This document shows, in pieces, positions 5,416 to 37,757 of a stretch of DNA of 64,000 nucleotides. Each line of letters begins with the position of its first letter. Within the stretch, counting starts at the first letter, position 1. The translations under genes were made by a program, and so were the position numbers. The stretch is from Yeosuana aromativorans (GTDB lineage Bacteria > Bacteroidota > Bacteroidia > Flavobacteriales > Flavobacteriaceae), in assembly GCF_014646655.1 (NCBI RefSeq), contig NZ_BMNR01000005.1, positions 62,001-126,000 of the forward strand, in the 5' to 3' direction. Below the pieces are notes generated by a model. The model did not search any database, had not been told where the DNA came from, and saw nothing but the letters and a program-made list of their open reading frames with translations.

Positions 5416-8400
5416 TTGTTGCTGTTGTTCATCATTTTGGTGTTGATAATTTCTATTCCAGCCGTTCAAACAAGTCTAGGGAACTACGCTACAAAAAAAC
5501 TCAACGACTCTTTTGGAACACACATAAACATTGATAAAGTTGGATTACAGTTTAATGGTGATGTTGAGCTTAAAAACATTTATATTGAAGATTACAAACA
5601 AGATACATTAATAAATATCACAGAACTGAATACGTCTATTTTAAATTTCAGAAACTTATATAAGGGCAAATTGGTGTTTGGTGATATTGATATTTATGGC
5701 CTGCTGTTCAATATCAAAAAATATAAAGGATCTGAAGATACCAATCTGGATATTTTTGTAGCCAAGTTTGAAGATGACAATCCCAGAAAAGAGAAGAGTG
5801 GCTTTTTACTCTCATCAAGCGATGTTTCTATATATGATGGTATTTTTATGTTATCGGATGAAAACAAAGAAAATCCCAAAAAACTTGATTTCAGTAATTT
5901 AAATATCAATGCCACCAATTTCTTAATCAATGGTAGCGACGTTAGTGCCAGGATAAATACCCTAGCGCTCAAGGATAGTAGGGGTGTGACCATCAAAAAT
6001 ATGATGACCAATTTTTCATATACTTTGACGGATATGACCTTTGATAATCTTGAGATAAAGACCGAGAATTCCATTTTAAAGGGAAATGTCAAATTTTCTT
6101 ATAATCGTGAGGATTTTAAATTTTTTGAGGATAAGGTTAAAGTATCTGCCCATTTTCAAGATTCAAACATACTTCTTAATGAGCTTAATACATTTTATGA
6201 TGAGTTTGGCGATAACCAATATGCTAAGTTTACTGTTGATTTATCGGGCACATTAAATGACTTGCATGCCAATAATTTATATCTCAACACCAGTACCAAT
6301 TCGCGAATTGTTGGAGACTTTAACTTTAAAAATTTATTCAATCAAGAGGAAAATAATTTTTATATGTTTGGTAGATTCAGCAATCTATCATCTACCTATA
6401 AAGATTTAAAAGCCTTACTTCCAAACGTTTTAGGAGCCTCTATTCCATCATCATTTGATAGGTTGGGTAAATTCACTTTAGTTGGGCAATCTGAAGTAAC
6501 TCCGTCAACAATAAACGCTGATTTGGAAATTGAGACAGAACTGGGTTTTGTTAATTCGAATTTAAGCATGAGCAGGGTCAACAATATTGATAATGCTTCA
6601 TACACCGGAAATATCATTTTCAAGGATTTTGATTTAGGTGTGCTCATGAACGATCCCAATGTTGGAAAAGCATCCTTGAATCTGGATGTTGATGGTAACG
6701 GATTTGTTGCTGAAACCATTAACACACAAGTAAAAGGGGATATCTATCAATTAGAGTTCAACCATTACAATTACAAAAACATTAAAGTAGCAGGAAATGT
6801 TAGGAATAGAATATTTGATGGTAATCTTATAGTAAACGACAATAATTTAAAACTTAATTTTACCGGTCTTGTTGATTTTTCAGAAAAAGTTAAGAAATAT
6901 GATTTTGAAGCCAAAGTATTTTATGCCAATCTTAAAGATTTGAACTTTGTAAAAAACGATAGCATTTCAATATTCCAAAGTAATGTTAAAATGAATATGA
7001 ATGCCAGTAGTTTAGACGATGCTTATGGGCAAGTGGCATTTAAGAATACATCTTACAAAAATCAAGTAGATACTTATTATTTTGATGAGTTTGCCATTTC
7101 CTCTCGGTTTGTTGATGATACAAGATATATTGAAATAAATTCACCGGACATTATGGAAGGCAGCCTTAGTGGTCACTTTGTTTTTAATGATTTGGGTAAA
7201 TTGTTCAAAAATGCTGTAGGAAGTATATACACTAACTACATACCTTATATGGTTGAAAAAAACCAATCCTTAAAATTTAATTTTAAAATTTATAATAAAA
7301 TTATTGAAGTGTTTTATCCTGAAATCAAGCTTGGAAAAAATACGTTTATAAAAGGTCAGGTTGAAAGTAATGAGAAAGGCTTTAAATTAACGTTTAAATC
7401 ACCTGGAATAAAATATCTTGATAATTTTGCCCAAAACATAGAATTGCAAGTTGATAATAACAACCCGCTTTTTAACACCTATGTAGAGGTTGATAGCATC
7501 AAGACAAAATACTACAACGTATCAAAATTTAACTTGATTAATGTCACGGTTAATGACACCTTATTTATGCGTTCTGAGTTTAACGGCGGAAAGCAAAACA
7601 AGGACAGTTATAATCTGAGTTTTTATCATACCATCAATGAAGAAAACCAATCGGTTATAGGTTTTAAAAAGTCCGATGTCACTATAAAAGACCATGTTTG
7701 GTTTATAAACGAAGCCAAAGATAATTTCAATAAGATATCGTTCAATAAAGATTTGACGTCATTTAACATTGATAAAATCAGGGTCAATCATAACAATGAG
7801 GAAATTTTATTGTCTGGATTTATAAAAGATTCCACCCAAAAAGATGTAAGGCTTAAATTCAAGGATGTTGACCTAGCCAAGATAGTTCCGGATATAGATA
7901 GCTTGTCACTTGCAGGAAATGTAAATGGTAAACTGGATATCCTTCAAAAAAATGGCAGTTATTTACCAAATTCAACAGTAACCATTGATGATTTTAAAGT
8001 AAATGATTTTGAATTAGGGTCTTTTGATGCCAATATTGAAGGCAATCAAACCTTGACCAATTACTTGGTAAATGTTACCATCAAGGATGACTTTTCAAAA
8101 TCGTTTAGTGCTACCGGAAACATTAATGTAACAGATAGTCAGTCTAACATTGATGTGGATTTGAACTTTAATAAATTCAATTTACAGCCATTAAACCCGC
8201 TGTTGCATGACGTTTTAAACAACATTAGAGGCACGGTAACAGGTCAAGCCAATGTGAAAGGCAATTTAAAAAAACCTGATATAACCGGTAGTCTAGAGGT
8301 CAACAATGGCGGATTTAGAATCCCATATCTCAATGTGGATTATGCCATTGCCAATAACACCGTTGTAAAGCTAAAAGATCAAAGTTTTATATTTAACAAA

Positions 8401-27222: not shown

Positions 27223-29517
27223 TTACCAATACATCCTAAACAAAAAGTTTGGCGTTAGATTAAGTGAATAATAATCTTGAATTACAACCGGGTCATCTGC
27301 AATGTTGTTTCCTGTGTATTCCCTACTCAAATGATTTTTTTGGTTATACAGATTCCAAATAGACAGCCCAACTTTACCTTTGATATCTGATTTTTTTGAA
27401 AACCAAAAATTATAGACCGATGAGAGATCAAGTCTATGGTAATTAGGAAGTCTTTCAGTATTCACACCTACCAAACTTACATCGTCATCATTTGGGTTTA
27501 CAGTTGAGAGGGTGTATGGTTTTCCTGTATGCCATTTCCAACCTAAGGCAACTTGCAATTTTTTGGTTTTGTAGGATATAGAAGCTGATATAGCATGGGC
27601 TATTTCATTACTGGCCGTAAAATAACGATTGTTATTGATGCCATCAAATCTAGCATCGATTTGATTTATTGAATAGCTTATCCATGTTTTGATTGATTTA
27701 AAATCTTTTTTGGTATAAAAGTCCAAACCATAGATGTTTTGTTCACCTTTCAAATATTTGGTATCATCTTCATTGTAAAAACCTAACGGAAGCGAGCTGA
27801 TTCCTGTTACTTTTTTATAATATGAATCAAAATCAAAACTCCATCCATTTTTATGATATAACGCACCAAGTGATAAGTGGTTGCTGTTTAAAATGGGTGC
27901 TTCCTTACCATCGGATAATCGCCAAAGCTTATTTTCCAAAGACAAATCACTATAAACGGTTTCATCAATTTGGTAAATAACTTGGTTTTTAATTTCACCA
28001 GAGGCCTGTATTTTTAGATTATCATTTATGTTTTTTACAATTAAAAGTCTTGGCTCTAATCTCAATGTATTTAACTGGCGATAATAATTCGCTCTCATTC
28101 CTATATCAAAATTGAATGATTTTGATTGTCTGTTGGAGTAATTTGCAAACAAGGCATGCGTATTTATTTTTGAATCGTTTTGGTCAAGTACAATAGGTGA
28201 GTCTGTAGTTTCAACAAAGGAATAACCAACATGTTTAAAACTGGTTTGATAGCCCAAACTTAATGTATTGTGCAATGAAAGTTCAGTAGAAAAATCAAAG
28301 TCCCTAATTTTGTTTTCCTTATCAAATTTTGATAATTGAGTGTTATCTTCTTCTGTAACAAAATCATACTGCAACATATAATCTGAAAAACTGACCTTTG
28401 TAGTTTGTTTGACATTTGAGTTCCAATTTTTGTTCCAATTTAAACTATAGCCGTTGTTTTCAGTGTCAATATAATCTTGGTAGAATATATTGTTGTTAAA
28501 ATCTTGATAGTCATGTAGCAAATCATTGTCAATATGTATGAGACTGCCCGATAAGGTATTATTGCTGTTTAATTTGTAATTTAGTTTGACGTTATAATCT
28601 TTAAAATGAAAGTTTTCTTCAGAAGTTTCATTGTCCAATATGGATGAATTTTGAAACACTTTCTGCTCCATTTTTTTGAAGGTATTGGTCTCAAATAGAT
28701 TCTCATAAGATTTTCTATAAGCCACCAAAACACTCAATTTGTTTGGTATGATTGGTGTTTCAAAAAAAGCATCGGCACTTATCCCGTTAAATCCAAATCC
28801 CATATTTATTTTCTCAGTAATATCATTACTTGTTGAAATGTCAACAACACTGGAAATTCTTTCACCAAAACGAGGATTTGTACCTTTATTGTAAAACGTT
28901 ATGTTTTGGGTAATGTTTGGGTTGAATGACGAAATCATACCAAATAAATGCCCACTGTGGTACATGGTTATTCCGTCCCAAATTATGTGATTCTGATCTG
29001 GAGTTCCACCTCTTACACTTAGGCCTGTAGCTGTTTCGTTTGGACTTATTACTCCGGGTAATTCCTGTAGACTTACCAAAACATCAGCTTCAATCAGGCC
29101 TGGTAAGATGTCCAGTTGTTTGGGCTGTATCTTGTAGGTTGCGTCCATGTTTTTTGAAATCCCTCGGGTTAAATATTCATTAATAATAACCGTATTCAGT
29201 TGCTGGTAATTAAAGGTTTCTTCTTCAGCTTTATTGACCACGATGTATCGCTGATTTATAATTTTGAAATGAATGTTGAGTAAGGAGGATAATTCATCCA
29301 AAGTTTCATTTAACGTGCGTTTTTTTTCTTCTAATGAAACGGTCTTGCCATCAATAAGCTTGTTTGGGTATGATATTTTTACATTATAAGCCTTTTCCAA
29401 AGTTATTATGGCATTGGCCGCTTCAACGTTGTCAAAATGAATTAAAGGTGTTACTGGTTCCTGTGAAAAGGCAATAAAAGGTAGAAATAGAAACAAAAAA
29501 TATAAGGGTAACTTCAT
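27223..29517 (-). CDS. TonB-dependent transducer receptor with N-terminal STN domain
   Basis: 764 aa. Signal peptide (about 1-18), then an STN domain (about 25-98: TPLIHFDNVEAANAIITLEK), the module that touches a FecR anti-sigma factor in the periplasm. A plug domain follows (LPGLIEADVLVSLQELPGV region, GLSVRGGTPDQN) and then a 22-strand-type barrel ending in an aromatic residue (FLFRMYW). It is shorter than SusC proteins and has no SusD partner, so it looks like a FecA-type signalling receptor. The ligand is unknown. Four bases separate it from fecR. Confidence 0.92.
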   Translation of the reverse strand: MKLPLYFLFLFLPFIAFSQEPVTPLIHFDNVEAANAIITLEKAYNVKISYPNKLIDGKTVSLEEKKRTLNETLDELSSLLNIHFKIINQRYIVVNKAEEETFNYQQLNTVIINEYLTRGISKNMDATYKIQPKQLDILPGLIEADVLVSLQELPGVISPNETATGLSVRGGTPDQNHIIWDGITMYHSGHLFGMISSFNPNITQNITFYNKGTNPRFGERISSVVDISTSNDITEKINMGFGFNGISADAFFETPIIPNKLSVLVAYRKSYENLFETNTFKKMEQKVFQNSSILDNETSEENFHFKDYNVKLNYKLNSNNTLSGSLIHIDNDLLHDYQDFNNNIFYQDYIDTENNGYSLNWNKNWNSNVKQTTKVSFSDYMLQYDFVTEEDNTQLSKFDKENKIRDFDFSTELSLHNTLSLGYQTSFKHVGYSFVETTDSPIVLDQNDSKINTHALFANYSNRQSKSFNFDIGMRANYYRQLNTLRLEPRLLIVKNINDNLKIQASGEIKNQVIYQIDETVYSDLSLENKLWRLSDGKEAPILNSNHLSLGALYHKNGWSFDFDSYYKKVTGISSLPLGFYNEDDTKYLKGEQNIYGLDFYTKKDFKSIKTWISYSINQIDARFDGINNNRYFTASNEIAHAISASISYKTKKLQVALGWKWHTGKPYTLSTVNPNDDDVSLVGVNTERLPNYHRLDLSSVYNFWFSKKSDIKGKVGLSIWNLYNQKNHLSREYTGNNIADDPVVIQDYYSLNLTPNFLFRMYW

Positions 29518-29520
29518 TGA

Positions 29521-30456
29521 CTATTCAGACAATAATATTTTTTTGTCTAAAATAGTATATTTAATGTTAACTGTATCAAAAACCGATGAAAGAGCGGTAT
29601 TTAAATCCTTATTATCAAAACTTCCAGTAAACAAAACGGTGTCATCTATGTTTTTGGCGCTGAATGTTATGTTGAACTGTTTTTCAAGGGCCATCATAAC
29701 TTGTTTCAATGGCACTCGTCTAAAGCTGCTTTCCCCATGAATCCAAGATGGATTGGCATCCAGTTCATGTAATGTCTCTTTTTCAAAAACGCCATTGGTG
29801 TTTCTTACTGATAGATTTGGAGTCAGTATGAATTCCTTATTGTTACTGGTAACTTTTACTTTTCCTTTGTAGCAGGTAACCTCAAAGAAAGACGGACTTG
29901 TATTTACATTAAACTGCGTGCCCAGAACAGTTACGGTTCCATTTTTGGTAACCACGGTAAAGGTTTTGCCTTTGGTTACTTTAAAAAAGGCCTCACCATC
30001 CAAAAACACCTCTCGTTTATGTTTCCAATCTTTTTTATTGTATTTTAAATTTGATTTGGCATTAAGAATGACTTCAGAACCATCTAAAAGTGCAACGGTT
30101 TTCAACTCTCCAAAGTTGGAAGCATATTCAACATTGCTGGTTTTTAAAAAGAAAGTTGCACTTAAAAATAGAACTATTGTTGCTGCTATTGCCATAGCAA
30201 CTTTGACATATAGATTTATGGTTTTTGTTTTAGATTGAGCATTTCTTTTATCTTTTATCCTAGCTTGAATTTTTGCATAGGTATCATCAAGTGGTTTTTG
30301 TAAATGCTCATAAACACCAATCCCAGCTTTGATTTTATTGTATATTTTAAACTCTTCATCACCAACTACTTTTTTAAAGGCAGAGTCAGAAAGCTGGCCA
30401 TCCATCCAATGTGCCAAAAATACATCATGCTCGTTTTTAGTAGTTTTCATGTCCAT
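29521..30456 (-). CDS. FecR family anti-sigma factor
   Basis: 311 aa. The cytoplasmic N-terminus (about 1-85) would bind the sigma factor; one membrane span (about 86-107, VAMAIAATIVLFLSATFFL) follows. The periplasmic FecR domain (about 115-215) has GEAFFKVTKGKTFTV-type sequence, and a C-terminal DUF4974-like STN-fold domain follows (about 240-311). It carries a signal from the TonB receptor across the inner membrane to the ECF sigma factor. A bipartite element (30479-30506) lies just upstream. Confidence 0.93.
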   Translation of the reverse strand: MDMKTTKNEHDVFLAHWMDGQLSDSAFKKVVGDEEFKIYNKIKAGIGVYEHLQKPLDDTYAKIQARIKDKRNAQSKTKTINLYVKVAMAIAATIVLFLSATFFLKTSNVEYASNFGELKTVALLDGSEVILNAKSNLKYNKKDWKHKREVFLDGEAFFKVTKGKTFTVVTKNGTVTVLGTQFNVNTSPSFFEVTCYKGKVKVTSNNKEFILTPNLSVRNTNGVFEKETLHELDANPSWIHGESSFRRVPLKQVMMALEKQFNITFSAKNIDDTVLFTGSFDNKDLNTALSSVFDTVNIKYTILDKKILLSE

Positions 30457-30478: not shown

Positions 30479-30506
30479 ATACAATTTAAAACCATAAAAC
30501 CCTACT
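30479..30506 (-). promoter_or_regulatory. Candidate ECF sigma promoter, copy C (upstream of fecR)
   Basis: Minus strand: AGTAGGGT (30506-30499), 15 bases, TGTAT (30483-30479). The same two blocks with the same 15-base spacer occur at 31081 and 31258. It lies in the 53-base gap between the sigma and fecR genes, with a transcript start near 30472, placing fecR and the receptor under sigma control separately from the sigma gene. Confidence 0.6.
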
Positions 30507-30509
30507 TTA

Positions 30510-31022
30510 TTAAATGTTTCCAATTTTTTCTCGCAATACCAAAAGGGCGCCATGCATGCGTTTTTCTACTGCTTTGACCGATAGACCCAACTCTTCGGCA
30601 ATGTCTTTGTACTTCTTTTTTTCTATCCTGTTCAGTAAAAATACTTCACGCTGTATTTCGGGCAAATCTTTAATGGCTTTTTCCAATTTTATTAAAAACT
30701 CTTCTTCCAATACTAAAAATTCCGGGGATTCATTGGTGCTTGTTTTACCATTTATTTGTTGGTGTGCATGCACAACTTTATTGTGCTTTACAATGTTTAA
30801 GAATAAATTATTGGCAATGGTATACAAGTAATTTTTAACGGTATCAAAGAGTACCTTTTCACAATCTTCCCAAATTTTTACAAACGCATCTTGAACAATG
30901 TCTTCTGCTATTTGGGCATCTCTTGTTTTAGAAAAAATATAACGTTTGATGTCTTTTGCATAACTCTTGAAAATACTTTCAAAAACTTGATCATCACAAA
31001 CATTTTTTGATTTAATACCCAT
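30510..31022 (-). CDS. ECF RNA polymerase sigma factor (FecI-like)
   Basis: 170 aa. Sigma region 2 (about 13-78; IAEDIVQDAFVKIWE and FDTVKNYLYTIANN) and region 4 (about 118-165; LPEIQREVFLLNRIEKKKY, KDIAEELGLSVKAVEKRM) are readable. There is no region 3, as expected for ECF sigma factors, and it belongs with the Bacteroidetes FecI-like group by its FecR neighbour. FecR would hold it inactive until the receptor binds its ligand. It appears to have its own housekeeping-type promoter (31050-31057). Confidence 0.94.
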   Translation of the reverse strand: MGIKSKNVCDDQVFESIFKSYAKDIKRYIFSKTRDAQIAEDIVQDAFVKIWEDCEKVLFDTVKNYLYTIANNLFLNIVKHNKVVHAHQQINGKTSTNESPEFLVLEEEFLIKLEKAIKDLPEIQREVFLLNRIEKKKYKDIAEELGLSVKAVEKRMHGALLVLREKIGNI

Positions 31023-31049
31023 GCATTAATTTATTGTACTTTGAGTTTT

Positions 31050-31057
31050 CAAAACTA
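31050..31057 (-). promoter_or_regulatory. Candidate housekeeping -7 element for the ECF sigma gene
   Basis: Minus strand TAGTTTTG, full TAnnTTTG match, about 28 bases before the sigma ATG. No clear -33. It differs from the GTAGGGT element, suggesting the sigma gene is expressed by the main sigma factor while fecR and the receptor are not. Confidence 0.5.
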
Positions 31058-31080
31058 AATAAAAAAAATATAAGAATCTT

Positions 31081-31108
31081 GGTAGGGTATTTTTTTTAAT
31101 GCTTGTAT
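31081..31108 (+). promoter_or_regulatory. Candidate ECF sigma promoter, copy A
   Basis: GGTAGGGT (31081-31088), 15 bases, TGTAT (31104-31108). Same blocks and spacing as copies B and C. It points right, into a segment that has no protein gene and ends at two terminators (31175 and 31224). Confidence 0.55.
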
Positions 31109-31123
31109 AAGTTAATGATTACT

Positions 31124-31175
31124 AAAGATTGTCTTACTATAGATCTCTCATAATAGCTGGTAGCAATCTTTTTTT
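31124..31175 (+). terminator. Hairpin with T run, first of two
   Basis: AAAGATTG (31124-31131) pairs with CAATCTTT (31164-31171) across a 32-base loop holding a smaller CTAT/ATAG pairing. Seven T residues end at 31175. The large loop makes it weaker than the next one. Confidence 0.4.
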
Positions 31176-31190
31176 GTGTTGATTGGTAGT

Positions 31191-31224
31191 AGAAAAGCCT
31201 TATAAATTAAGGCTTTTCTTTTTT
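31191..31224 (+). terminator. Strong rho-independent terminator without an upstream gene
   Basis: Perfect 12-bp stem AGAAAAGCCTTA / TAAGGCTTTTCT with a 5-base loop (31203-31207) and a T run at 31219-31224. It points right, yet the nearest plus-strand gene upstream is serB, 4 kb away beyond three minus-strand genes. Confidence 0.85.
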
Positions 31225-31257
31225 AAATTAAAAAATGAGGATTTTAATAATTTTTTT

Positions 31258-31285
31258 GGTAGGGTTTTTATTTTTTAAACTGTAT
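31258..31285 (+). promoter_or_regulatory. Candidate ECF sigma promoter, copy B (thioredoxin-apbE operon)
   Basis: GGTAGGGT (31258-31265), 15 bases, TGTAT (31281-31285). Predicted start near 31292, ahead of a weak reading frame at 31306 and the thioredoxin gene at 31548. Same spacing as copies A and C. Confidence 0.6.
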
Positions 31286-31305: not shown

Positions 31306-31506
31306 ATGAGAAAAATAACTTTTGCTATTATAATTTGGTTAGCAGGAATGTGTTCAACAGAAAAACCGCTTTCAAATAACCCAATTAGGAAACCTTGTAA
31401 GAGACTTTATCTACAAACGTTTTATAAATTTTATTTCGCTGATGCGATGATTCAAAACAAGCAATCAAAGAATTCGATGTTAAATAAAATCTCATTAGTA
31501 TCCTAA
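31306..31506 (+). CDS. Possible small protein or leader peptide (uncertain)
   Basis: 66 codons from an ATG about 14 bases after the predicted start of promoter B. The N-terminus (MRKITFAIIIWLAGMCS) looks like a short signal or lipoprotein-type sequence; the rest is Lys/Asn-rich with no motif. The 41-base gap to thioredoxin and the position favour a leader or small secreted protein, but composition alone could be chance. No family recognised. Confidence 0.3.
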   Translation: MRKITFAIIIWLAGMCSTEKPLSNNPIRKPCKRLYLQTFYKFYFADAMIQNKQSKNSMLNKISLVS

Positions 31507-31547: not shown

Positions 31548-31994
31548 ATGAAAAAAATATTTTGTTTTAGTATAGTCGCTTTGGTCTTTAATTTCAGTAT
31601 GCTTGGCCAAAATTGGGAGACAAATTTCAATAAAGCCAAAGAAGAGGCTTCAAAGACCAATCATGATATTGTCCTGGTATTTCAGGGATCTGATTGGTGC
31701 GGTCCGTGCATGAAGTTGGAAAAAGAAATTTGGAGTTCTCCAGAGTTTCAAAAACTAGCTAAAGACCGCTTTGTTATGCTTAAAGCTGATTTTCCCAGAA
31801 GAAAAGCCAATAAACTATCTGATGAACAGGCAGCTCAAAACGCCAAACTAGCCGAAATGTATAATGAACAAGGCTTTTTCCCACTGGTAGTTGTATTGAA
31901 TTCAAGCGGAAAAGTTTTGGGTAAAATGGGATATGAAAAATTATCACCCAAGAGCTATTACAATAAATTAATCTCTTTTGATCCTTCGCTTTGA
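31548..31994 (+). CDS. Exported thioredoxin-like protein
   Basis: 148 aa. Signal peptide (about 1-20, ending LGQ), then a thioredoxin fold with the redox motif WCGPC (Cys51, Cys54) and a cis-Pro region (FFPLVVVLN). It resembles Thioredoxin_7-type periplasmic reductases. It overlaps apbE by three bases (TTGA) and leads an operon apbE-DUF4266-DUF3570. It may keep cysteines of the DUF4266 lipoprotein (GGGCGCN tail) or another partner reduced; that is inference. Confidence 0.9.
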   Translation: MKKIFCFSIVALVFNFSMLGQNWETNFNKAKEEASKTNHDIVLVFQGSDWCGPCMKLEKEIWSSPEFQKLAKDRFVMLKADFPRRKANKLSDEQAAQNAKLAEMYNEQGFFPLVVVLNSSGKVLGKMGYEKLSPKSYYNKLISFDPSL

Positions 31995-32974
31995 GACATA
32001 TTTTTTTAGGAATATTATTGTTATTCACATCGTTTGCGTTTTCGCAAGAGGTTTACAGAAGAACCTTGAAACTCATGGGAAGTCGTTACGATATATCTGT
32101 AGTAGCTGATAATCAAGCTGAAGGCGAATCGTATATAGATATTGCAGTGAATGAGATATCACGAATAGAAAAAATGATATCCTCATGGGATCCTACCACA
32201 GAAACATCTGAAATCAACAGAAATGCTGGAATAAAACCAGTAGTGGTTGATGAAGAGCTTTTTAATTTGATTCAACGAGCCATAAAGATTTCAAAATTAA
32301 CAGAAGGTGCTTTTGACATCAGTTATGCATCCATGGATAAGATATGGAAGTTTGATGGTAGTATGACTGAAATGCCTAGTGAGGAAGCCATAAAAAATTC
32401 GGTTGCTAAAGTAGGTTACCAAAATATCATTTTAAATGAAGCCGATCATTCTGTCTTTTTAAAATTGAAAGGCATGAAGATTGGTTTTGGTGCTATTGGT
32501 AAAGGCTATTCAGCAGATAAGGCCAAGGCTTTATTGATAAGTAAAGGTGTTAAGGCCGGAATTATCAATGCCTCAGGCGATTTGACCACTTGGGGTACAC
32601 AACCAGACGGAAAGGATTGGATGGTTGCCATTGTAAACCCAATTAACAAAGACAAAGTATTTGCTTGGTTACCTGTGCATAATTCGGCAGTAGTCACTTC
32701 AGGCAATTATGAAAAATATGTCAAGTTTAATGGCGTGTTGTACACACATATTATAGACCCAAGAACGGGATATCCTGCAACAGGGCTTTTAAGTGCATCT
32801 ATATTTACAGCCAATGCAGAATTAGCTGATGCATTGGCAACTTCTGTGTTTGTAATGGGCGTAGATGTAGGTTTGGATTTTATCAATCAATTAAAAGGAG
32901 TGGAATGTATCCTTGTTGATAAGGATAACAAGGTTCAAACATCAAAAAACATGAATTTAAAACAGTTGAATTAA
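31991..32974 (+). CDS. apbE: FAD:protein FMN transferase ApbE
   Basis: 327 aa starting at TTG that overlaps the thioredoxin stop. A signal peptide (LGILLLFTSFAFS) exports it. ApbE blocks are present: SSWDPTTETSEINR, GFGAIGKGYSADKA, NASGDLTTWG and HIIDPRTGYPA, the last carrying the Mg-binding Asp. ApbE covalently links FMN to Thr/Ser of target proteins outside the cytoplasm. No Rnf/Nqr/NosR target with a clear S/T-G-A-T/S motif is next to it, so the substrate is open. One base separates it from DUF4266. Confidence 0.94.
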   Translation: MRHIFLGILLLFTSFAFSQEVYRRTLKLMGSRYDISVVADNQAEGESYIDIAVNEISRIEKMISSWDPTTETSEINRNAGIKPVVVDEELFNLIQRAIKISKLTEGAFDISYASMDKIWKFDGSMTEMPSEEAIKNSVAKVGYQNIILNEADHSVFLKLKGMKIGFGAIGKGYSADKAKALLISKGVKAGIINASGDLTTWGTQPDGKDWMVAIVNPINKDKVFAWLPVHNSAVVTSGNYEKYVKFNGVLYTHIIDPRTGYPATGLLSASIFTANAELADALATSVFVMGVDVGLDFINQLKGVECILVDKDNKVQTSKNMNLKQLN

Positions 32975-32975
32975 C

Positions 32976-33182
32976 ATGAAAAAACTGGTTATAATACTAG
33001 TAGCTATGTCTTTTACGTCTTGTATGGCCGTTAAAGAATACGAAAGAGTAAATATAAATGATCCCGATATGGCTTTATCAAGAAAGAAGTCTGATAGGTT
33101 TGAGAGGAACTTCCAAGTGTATCGAGAAGGCGCGTCTGGCGCTAATGGCGGAAAATCAGGTGGTGGTTGTGGTTGTAATTAA
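32976..33182 (+). CDS. DUF4266 small lipoprotein with C-terminal GGGCGCN
   Basis: 68 aa. A lipoprotein signal with Cys16 (SFTSC) leaves a mature peptide of 53 residues. The tail is very Gly-rich, with two Cys: EGASGANGGKSGGGCGCN. This matches DUF4266, which in flavobacteria travels with apbE and DUF3570. The tail could be a metal-binding, redox or modification site, perhaps served by the thioredoxin or ApbE; no function is established to my knowledge. It sits one base after apbE and 47 bases before DUF3570. Confidence 0.85.
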   Translation: MKKLVIILVAMSFTSCMAVKEYERVNINDPDMALSRKKSDRFERNFQVYREGASGANGGKSGGGCGCN

Positions 33183-33229: not shown

Positions 33230-34714
33230 ATGAAAGCAACATATAAATTAATGATTTTTGCAATATTACTGTCTTCAGTATCTTTTGCACAACAAAATAA
33301 TACAAGTACATATAAAAAGCGCGTTTTGGATAATACAGAGGCAGAATTTTTGACCAGTTATTATAACCAAGACGGAAGCAATGCCTCAGTAACGGGTGGT
33401 ATTGGTAGTGAGAAACTTAATGATTTTACTCCAACTGTAGTTGTAAGCGTGCCTTTAAATGATGACGATGTATTAACTATAGATGCGGGAATTTCAACAT
33501 ATTCTTCGGCTTCTTCAAGTAATTTAAATCCTTTTGATAGAACAATAAAAGTTCCAAAATCAAGCACAACGGTTATAACGTCTGCCTCAAAAGGAACCAC
33601 AAAAACCATAACGAAATATGCAAAAGTAAGCTCTCCAACCCCTTGGGCAGCATCTTCAGGTGCATCACGGGCTGACATTTGGGGCAACATAACAGGTAGT
33701 TATGCCCATAGCTCAAATAGCAGAAATACTATTTGGGATGCTGATTTGTCTTTGTCACACGAGTTTGATTACAATTCGCTTGGATTGGGAGTTGGTCTCA
33801 CGCAATTGCTCAATGATAAAAATACAACGCTGGGTTTAAGTGCCAATGTGTATTTGGATAAGTGGAACCCTAAATATCCAACAGAACTGCACTGGTACTT
33901 ATTGGGAAATAAAAGCTTAAACAGTAACTATTTTCAGGGCGTACCTATTTATAACCAGAATGGAACTGAAATTGACAAGACAGGCAATACAACAACTGTT
34001 TGGAATCCATTAAATTATAGTTTTATTCAAAACACTTCAAGAAACTCATATTCTGCCTCTTTTAGTTTTTCACAGATATTAAATAAAAACGCACAGTTTT
34101 CCATATTCTTCGATGTAGTAAAGCAACAAGGTTGGTTGTCAAATCCCATGCAACGTGTTTATTTTGGTGACGTTGAAAATTTTTATATCGGAAATCCAGC
34201 TACCATTCCAAATTATACATCGCGAAGTAACAATGATGTGTTCCAGCTGGCTGATGACATGGAACGTTTGCCAAGTTCACGTTTAAAACTACCAATAGGG
34301 ATGAATTTTAATTATTATTTAAACGAAACCTTTGTTTTGCGCACGTATTACAGATATTATACTGATGATTGGGGTATTAAATCAAATACGGCAAATATAG
34401 AAATACCAATTAAAATAAGTCCTAAATGGACGGTATACCCATCATATAGATATTATGATCAAACAGCGGCGGATTATTTTGCGCCGTATGAACAAAACTT
34501 ATCTACTAGTAAATATTATACATCCGATTACGATTTATCAAAATTTAATTCCAATCAGTATGGTTTTGGCTTTGGGTATACAGATGTTTTTGCCAGTTGG
34601 CATCTTTGGGGTTTAGGCTTAAAAAATATAGATTTAAAATATTATAACTACAAAAGGAGCACTGGTTTGAATGCTAGTATTATTACTGCGGGGATTAAAT
34701 TTATTTTAGATTAA
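33230..34714 (+). CDS. DUF3570 outer-membrane beta-barrel protein
   Basis: 494 aa. Signal peptide (about 1-20, MIFAILLSSVSFA). The mature protein is rich in alternating aromatic/polar strands (YSFIQNTSRNSYSASFSFSQ; LRTYYRYYTDDWG) and ends in a hydrophobic strand (AGIKFILD), as in outer-membrane barrels. The arrangement fits DUF3570. It is the last gene of the thioredoxin-apbE-DUF4266 operon. An outer-membrane protein here suggests the operon builds an envelope redox or uptake device. Confidence 0.87.
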   Translation: MKATYKLMIFAILLSSVSFAQQNNTSTYKKRVLDNTEAEFLTSYYNQDGSNASVTGGIGSEKLNDFTPTVVVSVPLNDDDVLTIDAGISTYSSASSSNLNPFDRTIKVPKSSTTVITSASKGTTKTITKYAKVSSPTPWAASSGASRADIWGNITGSYAHSSNSRNTIWDADLSLSHEFDYNSLGLGVGLTQLLNDKNTTLGLSANVYLDKWNPKYPTELHWYLLGNKSLNSNYFQGVPIYNQNGTEIDKTGNTTTVWNPLNYSFIQNTSRNSYSASFSFSQILNKNAQFSIFFDVVKQQGWLSNPMQRVYFGDVENFYIGNPATIPNYTSRSNNDVFQLADDMERLPSSRLKLPIGMNFNYYLNETFVLRTYYRYYTDDWGIKSNTANIEIPIKISPKWTVYPSYRYYDQTAADYFAPYEQNLSTSKYYTSDYDLSKFNSNQYGFGFGYTDVFASWHLWGLGLKNIDLKYYNYKRSTGLNASIITAGIKFILD

Positions 34715-34832: not shown

Positions 34833-37757
34833 ATGTCTATGCGCTATTTTTTTTATACAATCTCTATTTTATTTTTAGTCAATCCTGTTTTTAGTCAACA
34901 ATCAAAAGACCCGTTGTTGGCTTCTAACCCTGAATTACAGAAAAAATGGGTAGATAGTGTCTACAATACCATGACGCTTAAAGAAAAAATTGGTCAATTA
35001 TACACTATTCAGGTGTTTTCAAATGAAGATGAGGAAACTAAAAAGGCAACTATTGATTTAATAAAAGAATATCATGTTGGTGGCATTATCTATTCAAAAG
35101 GCGGACCGGTAAGGCAAGCCAAGTTGAATAATGAACTGCAAAGTATTTCAAAAGTGCCATTATTGGTTAGCATGGATGCCGAATGGGGCTTGAATATGCG
35201 ATTGGATTCTACCTTTGCTTTTCCTTGGAACATGACATTGGGAGCAATAAAAGATAACAAGCTTATAGAACAAGTTGGTAAACAGATTGGTGAGCATTGC
35301 AAACGTTTGGGTGTGCAATTGAATTTTGCGCCCGTAGTTGATATCAATACTAACCCTAAAAATCCAATCATAGGAAATCGTTCCTTTGGAGAAGACCGCG
35401 ACAATGTTACCGAAAAAGCCTTGGCTTTTATGAAAGGTATGCAAAGTGTAGGTGTATTGGCCAATGCCAAGCATTTCCCTGGACATGGAGATACATCAAC
35501 AGATTCCCATAAAACGTTGCCAACCATTGATTTTGATGAAAAGCGTATTGATTCAGTAGAAATGTATCCATATAAGCGGCTTATTAAAGAAGGACTTTCA
35601 AGTGTTATGGTGGCACATTTAAATGTACCCAGTTTAGAGTCTAGATCTAATTATCCGTCATCATTATCAAATCACATTGTTACTGATATTTTAAAAGATT
35701 CACTGGGATTCAAAGGCCTTGTGATTTCCGATGCATTAAATATGAAAGGTGCAGCAGATTTTGATGAATCAGGAGAGATTGATTTGGCGGCTTTTTTAGC
35801 GGGAAATGATATTCTTCTCATTTCTGAAGATCCACCAATGGGAATCTCTAAAATTACTGATGCTTATTATGAAGGTAAAATATCTGAAGACCGTTTGGCA
35901 CATTCTGTAAAGAAAATCCTGATGGCTAAGTATAAAGTAGGATTGAACCACTACAAACCTGTTGAACTGACCAATTTAGTTTCAGATTTAAACAGAATTA
36001 AAGATGATGCATTGTACGAAGACCTGACGGAAAACGCTTTGACGGTAGTAAAGAACAAATCAGATCTTTTGCCGCTTAGACGATTGGAAACAAAAACCAT
36101 TGCGTATGTAAAAATGGGTGATGATGATGGTTCTGCTTTTTTTGATGAATTAAAGAAATATGCTAAGATCCATGAAGTAAAAGCTGATAAATTAGATGAA
36201 ATGTTGACTCAATTGCAATCCTATAATACGGTTATTATTGGGTTTCACCGCTCCAATGAAACCCCATGGAAATCGTATGAGTTTACAGATCAGGAATTGG
36301 TTTGGCTCTATGAAATTGCCAGAACCCACACGGTTATTCTAGATGCGTTTGTAAAACCGTATGCGCTTTCTGATTTTCATAGTATTGAAAATATTGAAAG
36401 TATTATTGTAAGCTATCAAAACAGTGACATAGCACAGCAAAAATCGGCACAGTTGATTTTTGGTGCCATTCCATCAAAAGGGATACTGCCAGTTTCAGTA
36501 GGGGATTTTTTTAAGGTTGGAGATGGCATACAAAATAATTCATTGAAACGATTAGCTTATACCATTCCGGAACGTGTTGGCATGAGCTCCAAAAAACTTG
36601 AGAAAGTGGACTCTCTGGCCAACTATGCCATTGATCAAAAAATGACTCCGGGCATTCAGCTGTTAATAGCCAGAAAAGGAAAAGTGATTTACAGTAAAAA
36701 CTTTGGTTATCACACCTATGACGATAAAGAAAAGGTAACATCAAATGATGTGTATGATGTCGCCTCGCTGACCAAAATACTGGGAACCCTACCATTGCTT
36801 ATGGAATTGGAAGAGCAGGGCATTGTTTCGCTAGACATCAAACTGTCCAGTTTATTGCCAGAATATAAAAATTCAAACAAAAAAAATATCACACTCAAGC
36901 AAATGCTATCACATTATGCTAGATTGATTCCGTGGATACCATTTTATGTTGCCACTTTAGATTCTGTCACGCATCAACCGAATCCCAAATACTACAGGCA
37001 TGAGTACAGCAGTAAATTTAATATTGAAGTGGCCAAGGATTTGTATTTAAGGAGTGATTATCCAGACACCATGCAGACTATCATTAAAGATAGCAAGCTT
37101 TTGGATCGGCTACATTATAGATATAGTGATTTACCGTATTATATTTTAAAGAAATTTATTGAGAAACATTACGACAAACCTCTGGACGAGCTAGTACAAG
37201 ATCATTTTTATGAATCGTTGGGAGCTAATATGACTATGTATAACCCATATCACAAATTAAGTGGCAAGAATATCATTCCAACTGAAATAGATAATTATTT
37301 CAGGCATCAAGAAGTTCACGGCTATGTGCATGATATGGGCGCAGCCATGCAAAATGGAGTAGGTGGGCACGCTGGAATATTTAGCAATGCCAATGATGTT
37401 GCCAAAATCATGCAAATGTATTTGCAAAAAGGATATTATGGTGGCAAGCGTTATTTTAAGCCTGAAACAATAGACAAGTTTAACACTTGTTATTATTGCA
37501 ATAAAGATAACAGGCGTGGCGTGGGTTTTGATAAACCACAATTGGAAGATGAAGGGCCAACTTGTGGATGTGTATCCATGACAAGTTTTGGACATTCCGG
37601 TTTTACAGGAACCTATGCCTGGGCAGACCCTGATAAAGAAATTGTGTATGTGTTTTTAGCTAATAGAACCTACCCAGATTCATCAAAAAATGAATTGCTT
37701 AAAGAGGATATTAGAACCAAAATTCAACGCTTGATATATGAAGCGATTATTGACTAG
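34833..37757 (+). CDS. GH3 beta-N-acetylglucosaminidase (NagZ-like) fused to a beta-lactamase-type serine hydrolase
   Basis: 974 aa. Signal peptide (about 1-21). GH3 domain (about 30-390) with the NagZ signature KHFPGHGDTSTDSH starting at residue 213 and nucleophile Asp300 in ISDALNM. A C-terminal-type GH3 segment (to about 560) follows. The last third is a class C beta-lactamase/esterase fold with SLTK (Ser645, Lys648), RYSD in the Tyr-x-Asn position and GHSG near the end. Such fusions are known in Bacteroidetes. Likely periplasmic action on peptidoglycan fragments: removal of GlcNAc plus a second hydrolysis. bshA follows 15 bases later. Confidence 0.93.
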   Translation: MSMRYFFYTISILFLVNPVFSQQSKDPLLASNPELQKKWVDSVYNTMTLKEKIGQLYTIQVFSNEDEETKKATIDLIKEYHVGGIIYSKGGPVRQAKLNNELQSISKVPLLVSMDAEWGLNMRLDSTFAFPWNMTLGAIKDNKLIEQVGKQIGEHCKRLGVQLNFAPVVDINTNPKNPIIGNRSFGEDRDNVTEKALAFMKGMQSVGVLANAKHFPGHGDTSTDSHKTLPTIDFDEKRIDSVEMYPYKRLIKEGLSSVMVAHLNVPSLESRSNYPSSLSNHIVTDILKDSLGFKGLVISDALNMKGAADFDESGEIDLAAFLAGNDILLISEDPPMGISKITDAYYEGKISEDRLAHSVKKILMAKYKVGLNHYKPVELTNLVSDLNRIKDDALYEDLTENALTVVKNKSDLLPLRRLETKTIAYVKMGDDDGSAFFDELKKYAKIHEVKADKLDEMLTQLQSYNTVIIGFHRSNETPWKSYEFTDQELVWLYEIARTHTVILDAFVKPYALSDFHSIENIESIIVSYQNSDIAQQKSAQLIFGAIPSKGILPVSVGDFFKVGDGIQNNSLKRLAYTIPERVGMSSKKLEKVDSLANYAIDQKMTPGIQLLIARKGKVIYSKNFGYHTYDDKEKVTSNDVYDVASLTKILGTLPLLMELEEQGIVSLDIKLSSLLPEYKNSNKKNITLKQMLSHYARLIPWIPFYVATLDSVTHQPNPKYYRHEYSSKFNIEVAKDLYLRSDYPDTMQTIIKDSKLLDRLHYRYSDLPYYILKKFIEKHYDKPLDELVQDHFYESLGANMTMYNPYHKLSGKNIIPTEIDNYFRHQEVHGYVHDMGAAMQNGVGGHAGIFSNANDVAKIMQMYLQKGYYGGKRYFKPETIDKFNTCYYCNKDNRRGVGFDKPQLEDEGPTCGCVSMTSFGHSGFTGTYAWADPDKEIVYVFLANRTYPDSSKNELLKEDIRTKIQRLIYEAIID

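Follow-up and report, generated by a model that had tools for sequence, protein, structure and literature searches.

A conserved bipartite element beside a FecI-type sigma factor gene of Yeosuana aromativorans is a predicted ECF promoter

Organization of the locus

The window analysed here is a stretch of 64,000 nt from Yeosuana aromativorans. A sequence-only reading of this DNA had proposed an ECF sigma/FecR locus next to a redox operon, and this gene context was borne out by Pfam and NCBIfam. SerB is followed, on the minus strand, by a TonB-dependent receptor with an N-terminal signalling domain, FecR and the ECF sigma factor. The plus strand carries, in this order, genes for a thioredoxin-like protein, ApbE, DUF4266, DUF3570 and a GH3/beta-lactamase-fold protein. 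The features considered in this study are:

27223..29517, minus strand: TonB-dependent receptor, 764 aa, with an STN-like N-terminal domain, presumed surface sensor (Pfam)
29521..30456, minus strand: FecR-type anti-sigma factor (sigma regulator), 311 aa (Pfam FecR, 6e-18)
30479..30506, minus strand: predicted ECF promoter 1, driving fecR-receptor; -35 box GTAGGGT at 30505-30499, -10 box TGTAT at 30483-30479 (conservation; matrix score 33.8)
30510..31022, minus strand: ECF sigma factor of the FecI type, 170 aa (NCBIfam TIGR02985)
31050..31057, minus strand: predicted -7 element TAGTTTTG for housekeeping transcription of the sigma gene, at a distance of 24 bp from the divergent -35 box
31081..31108, plus strand: predicted ECF promoter 2, divergent; -35 box at 31082-31088, -10 box at 31104-31108 (matrix score 25.7)
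31115..31225, plus strand: predicted short transcript, about 110 nt long, with no conserved ORF and a terminator at its end
31191..31219, plus strand: intrinsic terminator, 12-bp stem and T tract (1 found versus 0.4 expected in shuffles)
31258..31285, plus strand: predicted ECF promoter 3, driving the thioredoxin-apbE operon; -35 box at 31259-31265, -10 box at 31281-31285 (matrix score 28.4)
31306..31506, plus strand: 66-codon ORF between promoter 3 and the thioredoxin gene, without Pfam match
31548..31994, plus strand: exported thioredoxin-like protein (Pfam Thioredoxin_7)
31991..32974, plus strand: ApbE, FAD:protein FMN transferase, with a TTG start at 31991 (Pfam)
32976..33182, plus strand: small DUF4266 protein with a C-terminal CGC (Pfam)
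33230..34714, plus strand: DUF3570 protein (Pfam; SGAS motif read by eye)

The sigma factor scored 127.3 bits against TIGR02985, just over the cut-off of 126.4, and stayed below the cut-offs of the models for E. coli FecI (61.9 of 185 and 61 of 260 bits). In the receptor, Pfam detected a FecR_C-type N-terminal domain (E 9e-9), while the Plug domain (1.3e-4) was just under the cut-off. The best PDB match of its predicted structure was full-length FpvA, and FoxA and FecA were matched as well; since the model is poor (mean pLDDT 55.5), these matches support the class of the protein only. A PDB sequence search with the receptor returned three chance antibody matches only. Clusters of ApbE, DUF3570, thioredoxin-like and DUF4266 genes have been assigned to flavin-based extracytosolic electron transfer, and flavinylation was shown for the DUF3570 family (PMC8238504). 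The DUF3570 protein of the window is likely flavinylated by ApbE. The protein adjoining the DUF3570 operon (34833-37757, plus strand) has a GH3 domain followed by a beta-lactamase-fold domain, and a protein of this kind is also found beside the DUF3570 operon in the loci L045, L048, L054, L104 and L106.

Three exact copies of the element in the window

The sequence-only reading had described three copies of GTAGGGT-N15-TGTAT around this locus. Pattern search confirmed exactly three exact copies in the window, at 30505-30479 (minus), 31082-31108 (plus) and 31259-31285 (plus). All three have A or G directly before GTAGGGT and a spacer of exactly 15 bases, and the spacers are unlike in sequence, in agreement with the claim that their length but not their sequence is conserved. 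The copies lie upstream of fecR-receptor, of the terminator-bounded gap and of the thioredoxin-apbE operon as described, except that the 66-codon ORF between the third copy and the thioredoxin gene had been omitted. This ORF was not found in the two nearest relatives, L104 and L106, and is probably not a conserved gene.

Shuffling the 1.2 kb region by dinucleotides produced the exact element in 0 of 2000 cases. Shuffling the whole window (n=200) gave 2 exact elements in total and no shuffle with three. With two mismatches allowed, the window has 8 matches compared to a mean of 3.8 expected, and 3 of 100 shuffles reach 8. Five exact copies are present in the genome (3.76 Mb, 34 contigs); the two besides those of the window both lie within long open reading frames, and exact copies outside coding sequence are found only at the window locus. 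With one mismatch the element has 14 matches in this genome and the backward control pattern 22, so that such matches mean nothing by themselves. As the mismatch-tolerant counts are unremarkable, our case is built on exact copies, position and relatives. One such one-mismatch site (L013), which has AGTAT at the -10 position, precedes a 264-aa gene. It was not counted as a member of the regulon, as TGT hardly varies among the homologue loci, being present in 78 of 79 gap copies.

Conservation of the element beside related sigma genes

Relatives were collected by protein similarity to the window sigma factor alone (356), and the best 80 loci were used. Of these best 80 of 356, 79 have GTAGGG on the sense strand in the gap between sigma gene and fecR and none has it on the reverse strand; in 78 it is followed by TGT after the 15-base spacing. 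A divergent GTAGGG upstream of the sigma gene is present in 76 of the same 80 loci (reverse strand: 5), with TGT at N15 in 74. The values 78, 76 and 74 are from a recount, the first count having given 77, 75 and 73; the loci, being related, are not independent of one another. Across the loci the two boxes thus keep a fixed -35/-10 spacing and are oriented to the gene start, while the bases of the spacer are variable and A/T-rich. GTAGGG-N16-TGT occurs 154 times within the two gaps of the 80 loci versus 3 times elsewhere in them. Scanning the genome and its relatives, as the sequence-only reading had proposed, found the element beside related sigma genes across many marine flavobacteria. L129 has two extra GTAGGG-N16-TGT sites (5517 and 5747, minus strand) outside the usual two positions.

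Four of the 80 loci lack the divergent GTAGGG (L144, L170, L172 and L179), and L170 lacks the GTAGGG in the gap as well. L163 is without TGT at both places and has CGTTT as divergent -10 sequence. L104 and L106 have TGTAA as the last bases of their thioredoxin-side sites, and L106 has it in its other divergent site too. From 148 sites, with the congeneric loci L104 and L106 left out, a matrix was trained that ranks the three sites of the window first (33.8, 28.4 and 25.7), the next window position scoring 5.4.

The distance from the -10 box to the fecR start codon is 10-34 nt in 78 of 78 measured loci, and 15-16 nt in 39 of them, which fits a promoter whose leader is very short. For promoter 1 of the window the predicted start is at about 30472 and the fecR start codon at 30456. 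The sigma gene itself was claimed to have a housekeeping -7 element instead, which corresponds to TAGTTTTG at 31057-31050 on the minus strand. The element is of the type TAnnTTTG, and the loose pattern CAAAnnTA for it occurs on the opposite strand somewhere upstream in 73 of the 80 loci. Of 72 loci in which the distance to the divergent GTAGGG was measurable, 49 have 32 nt from start to start and 56 have 31-33 nt, and this fixed distance in the homologues is in line with the claim.

Sites upstream of redox operons in genomes with and without the sigma factor

The genus is represented by 7 genomes, of which 3 have an orthologue of FecR (69-100% identity) and 4 have FecR paralogues only. The thioredoxin-ApbE operon is present in 6 of the 7. 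ECF sites upstream of the thioredoxin-ApbE-DUF3570 operon were found in 3 of 3 genomes with the sigma cassette and in 0 of 3 without it. Even at two mismatches there is no site upstream of the thioredoxin operon in the three cassette-less genomes, one of which offers about 330 bases of upstream contig.

A further site of this kind lies elsewhere in the genome. On contig C4 an intergenic GTAGGGT-N15-TGTAA precedes an operon (L227, G000:C4:238000-246471) for a putative membrane protein, a ferredoxin/FAD oxidoreductase and two multihaem cytochromes c, the families having been read on the copies of Yeosuana marina. In Yeosuana marina an exact site precedes the same operon. The site is thus present in 2 of 2 genomes with the sigma factor and in 0 of 2 without it, and both with/without comparisons, of 6 and 4 genomes, are confined to one genus. 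The two sigma-less congeners keep the operon without the site, their oxidoreductases being 86 and 90% identical; in one of them (G125) a single GTAGGG, without TGT at 15, lies upstream of it on the other strand. By this comparison the predicted regulon gains a further operon, that of the multihaem cytochromes. A search of 23 genomes for the oxidoreductase of this operon gave matches at E 1e-60 or better in 4, all belonging to this genus.

In G120, which by its coordinates is Yeosuana marina, all 4 GTAGGGT-N15-TGTAW sites of the genome are at the locus and at the thioredoxin and multihaem targets, compared to 4 of 6 in the genome of the window and, with the fourth site unclassed, 3 of 4 in the third cassette genome. 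Winogradskyella eximia has an intergenic site before a dihaem cytochrome (TIGR03806) gene. In 14 homologue genomes there are 29 exact TGTMT sites, which by hand assignment fall into 18 at the locus, 2 at cytochrome operons, 6 in coding sequence, 2 before fecR genes of other Kordia loci, and 1 unclassed (L210/L289, near a contig start). The backward control has 9 matches in those genomes. Thirteen genomes taken as orthologue-free, 4 by FecR search and 9 only because none adjoins their DUF4266, have 7 sites, 5 of them in coding sequence and 2 at a paralogous FecI-FecR locus.

A tblastn search with the window FecR (1e-5) found none beside DUF4266 in 42 family genomes (of 119 others searched), some of these loci being truncated by contig ends. 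SerB and the thioredoxin gene are separated by 0.14 kb in L045, about 0.2 kb in the congeneric G125 and 1.4 kb in L046. In the lineage of the window the sigma-FecR-receptor cassette therefore stands between SerB and the operon.

A lipoprotein gene behind the predicted divergent promoter in most relatives

Downstream of the divergent site a lipoprotein gene was found in 64 of the 80 loci with a loose lipobox pattern, and in 3 more by eye. Two of these lipoproteins were tested against Pfam and gave no match; some resemble Kazal-like or calcium-binding repeats by eye, a resemblance only. In four loci (L105, L108, L109 and L163) the lipoprotein gene is followed by the thioredoxin-ApbE operon. A Rieske-like protein precedes this operon in L144 (Pfam) and L107 (by eye); because L144 lacks the divergent GTAGGG, its tie to the operon is neighbourhood alone. 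A terminator-like hairpin was read by eye between the lipoprotein and thioredoxin genes of L105, L109 and L163 and may attenuate the redox genes of these loci.

The window, L104 and L106 lack a lipoprotein gene. The divergent site is followed instead by about 110 bases with a terminator-like hairpin, a second site and the thioredoxin gene. On a quick FecI-FecR tree the sigma factors adjoining the redox operon (9 of 81 rows) cluster, with 2 changes versus 8.7 in shuffles, and the cluster spans two families. Since a lipoprotein gene stands behind the divergent promoter in most relatives, the window and its clade appear to have been rewired to redox targets. Our reading is that this clade exchanged its target or added to it, the predicted short transcript occupying the former lipoprotein slot.

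In our view, the product of the divergent promoter (31115-31225) is rather unlikely to be a functional regulatory small RNA. The site, a hairpin with T tract and the absence of an ORF are common to the window, L104 and L106, the terminator scan having been applied to the window only, and the alignment of the window with L104 is better than that of shuffled sequences (z 4.7). However, the values for the window and L106 (z 2.5) and for L104 and L106 (z 1.1) are weak, no Rfam family was matched or came near a gathering score, and the same promoter precedes a lipoprotein gene in most homologues, so that the short transcript may be the remnant of a lost gene. The receptor, its anti-sigma factor, a small RNA and the redox operon had been proposed to form one regulon. 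Our comparative data agree with this for fecR-receptor and the redox operon and leave the small RNA doubtful.

In the Kordia loci L173, L176, L181 and L183 a region lacking an ORF lies downstream of the divergent ECF site and looks conserved among the four by eye. This region (e.g., about 6700-6930, minus strand, in L176) ends in a GGCAGCAAAG...CTTTGTTGCC hairpin with T tract. It is possibly an ECF-driven non-coding RNA; the L176 sequence reached no gathering score in Rfam (best 25.2 of 44 bits).

Distribution of the predicted promoter code among FecI-type sigma factors

A looser version, GTAGG-N17-TGT, was examined in 30 FecR loci from 30 family genomes, one per genome of many FecR matches. 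The sample includes one paralogue of the own genome and one close match to a locus of the best 80. The looser element was found in the sigma-fecR gap of 20 of 21 loci with at least 45% sigma identity and in 0 of the 9 others, the cut-off having been set after seeing the data, with no locus between 40% and 47%. A divergent looser copy is present in 18 of these 21 loci. In a phylum-wide sample, in which 28 of 29 loci were examined and L316 was left out because its sigma was not recovered (chance match only), the code was found in 4 of 4 loci at 49% identity or more, 0 of 1 at 45%, 1 of 1 at 41% and 0 of 22 at 35% or less. L317 and L318 of this sample have no site. As exceptions, L265 (51% sigma identity) and L294 (45%) lack the site.

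Two FecI paralogues of the own genome have related sequences, found by eye and script: GTAGGAA-N15-TGTTW on C8 (L231) and GTAGGGA-N15-TGTCT on C13 (L232). Both are FecI-FecR-receptor units, each with a divergent lipoprotein-like gene. The differing last bases of the -35 box suggest a possible address per sigma factor, and the similarity of the sites makes crosstalk possible. M156 and H157, which we take to lie in the region-4 recognition helix on the basis of ECF structures, are among the four sigma columns that best separate GTAGGGT from GTAGGA sigma factors. This comparison omits 3 GA-type sites, and we do not rely on the covariation of residues and promoters, because the second class consists of only 6 sigma factors, possibly of one clade.

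The element as a very probable promoter of the adjacent sigma factor

Conserved position, strand and spacing, absence from target operons of genomes without the sigma factor, and the short distance to the fecR start all support the earlier claim that the adjacent FecI-type ECF sigma factor recognizes the element. We consider this very probable from comparative sequence data. The same promoters could be read mainly by the paralogous FecI proteins of C8 or C13, or by several sigma factors together. The shared architecture of the paralogous sites would fit this, as would GTAGGGT-N15-TGTCT, which Kordia and G049 have before fecR of other FecI/FecR loci. Yet the four congeners without orthologue keep FecR paralogues and their operons are without sites (thioredoxin 3, multihaem 2), and the last -35 bases differ between paralogues. 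We therefore regard such a reading as improbable.

Still less credible is an operator role of the bipartite element, to which an activator or a repressor would bind. Its two parts and the strongly conserved G-rich box would suit an operator, but the element is asymmetric and faces the downstream gene (reversed in 0 of 80 fecR gaps), has -35/-10 spacing, lies 10-34 nt before the fecR start codon and accompanies a FecI sigma factor. Moreover, of ten window proteins searched in the 80 loci, only sigma factor, FecR and receptor recur in nearly all. Chance, or a dispersed repeat without regulatory role, has a negligible probability: the one-mismatch genome count does not exceed its backward control and the two-mismatch window count is only slightly above shuffles, but the exact copies in shuffles (0 of 2000), the enrichment in the gaps (154 versus 3) and the unlike spacers led us to reject it.

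In FecI-FecR systems the receptor senses a ligand, FecR relays the signal and the sigma factor recruits RNA polymerase (PMC9249621). If the element is a promoter of the adjacent sigma factor, it would consist of a -35 box (A/G)GTAGGGT, 15 bases, and a -10 box TGTAT (family consensus TTGTMTTA), with transcription starting about 7 bases further on. The sigma gene would be transcribed by the housekeeping sigma factor. Sensing of a ligand by the TonB-dependent receptor would be signalled via FecR and free the sigma factor, and polymerase would then fire at the three sites of the locus: fecR-receptor, the divergent short transcript, and the thioredoxin-ApbE-DUF4266-DUF3570 operon. Promoter 1 would provide feedback on anti-sigma factor and sensor, and the fourth site would fire the operon for the ferredoxin/FAD oxidoreductase and the multihaem cytochromes c. 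With both operons as targets, the regulon would build an electron-transfer pathway of the envelope. The opposed promoters, 24 bp apart, might exclude each other.

More tentatively, and with somewhat more doubt than belief, we propose a general scheme. Flavobacterial FecI systems may follow a grammar in which GTAGG-N17-TGT stands at two fixed spots, one in the gap between sigma gene and fecR and one opposed to the housekeeping promoter of the sigma gene, and the bases behind GTAGG and the fourth base of the -10 serve as address of each sigma factor. The clade of the window may have kept this grammar and swapped the lipoprotein for an envelope-spanning conduit of flavin, thiol and multihaem electron carriers, so that a TonB-dependent sensor would switch extracellular electron transfer, and the 24-bp gap may let the active sigma factor shut off its own gene.

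Comparison with known systems

The recognition sequence of the E. coli fecA promoter differs from the window element. The locus resembles the E. coli FecI-FecR-FecA system, the surface signalling system for ferric citrate, in its ECF sigma factor, FecR and TonB-dependent receptor with N-terminal signalling domain, and in the predicted arrangement with the sigma gene on a housekeeping promoter and the receptor on an ECF promoter (PMC9249621). In E. coli fecIR is one transcript and not autoregulated (PMC9249621), while here an ECF promoter is predicted between sigma gene and fecR, which would place FecR and receptor under control of the sigma factor. The predicted targets are redox operons, unlike the ferric citrate importer of E. 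coli Fec.

Bacteroides polysaccharide loci have ECF sigma/anti-sigma pairs of the same phylum and the same surface-signalling logic (PMC3878776, PMC11501099). In contrast to those loci, no SusD family was found among ten window genes, and the GH3 protein is the sole glycoside hydrolase among these. A regulon reconstruction described the prediction of ECF promoters in Bacteroidetes as challenging and dependent on start-site data (PMC3878776), whereas the promoter here is defined by comparison; the 22 sigma factors of at most 35% identity in the phylum-wide sample are without its code. The SM6 promoters of Flavobacterium psychrophilum, described with a start-site map, are ECF promoters of the same family, but they have a CGT -10 box and T9SS targets (PMC9723704), and the window element differs; the main text of that paper has no word beginning GTAGG. 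In the available text of PMC12596196, PMC11501099, PMC3646045 and PMC3497265 the motif is not described, GTAGGGT being part of primer sequences in the latter two. We found no description of it in the literature searched, which comprised few subscription papers and had the group motifs of the 2021 ECF reclassification outside its scope. Bacteroidota carry many FecI-type sigma factors, and a readable code would let flavobacterial surface-signalling regulons be read from sequence.

The redox operon is similar to the DsbD-type flavinylation cluster in that the same four kinds of gene stand together (PMC8238504). DsbD was not found among ten window genes run against Pfam, and 316 flavinylation clusters without DsbD were counted in PMC8238504. 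The main text of that study does not mention a sigma factor or FecR, whereas here the cluster is placed under a dedicated FecI system. The role of the DUF3570/ApbE/thioredoxin electron-transfer cluster has been called uncertain (PMC8238504), and our analysis provides it with a candidate dedicated sensor and a putatively co-regulated cytochrome operon.
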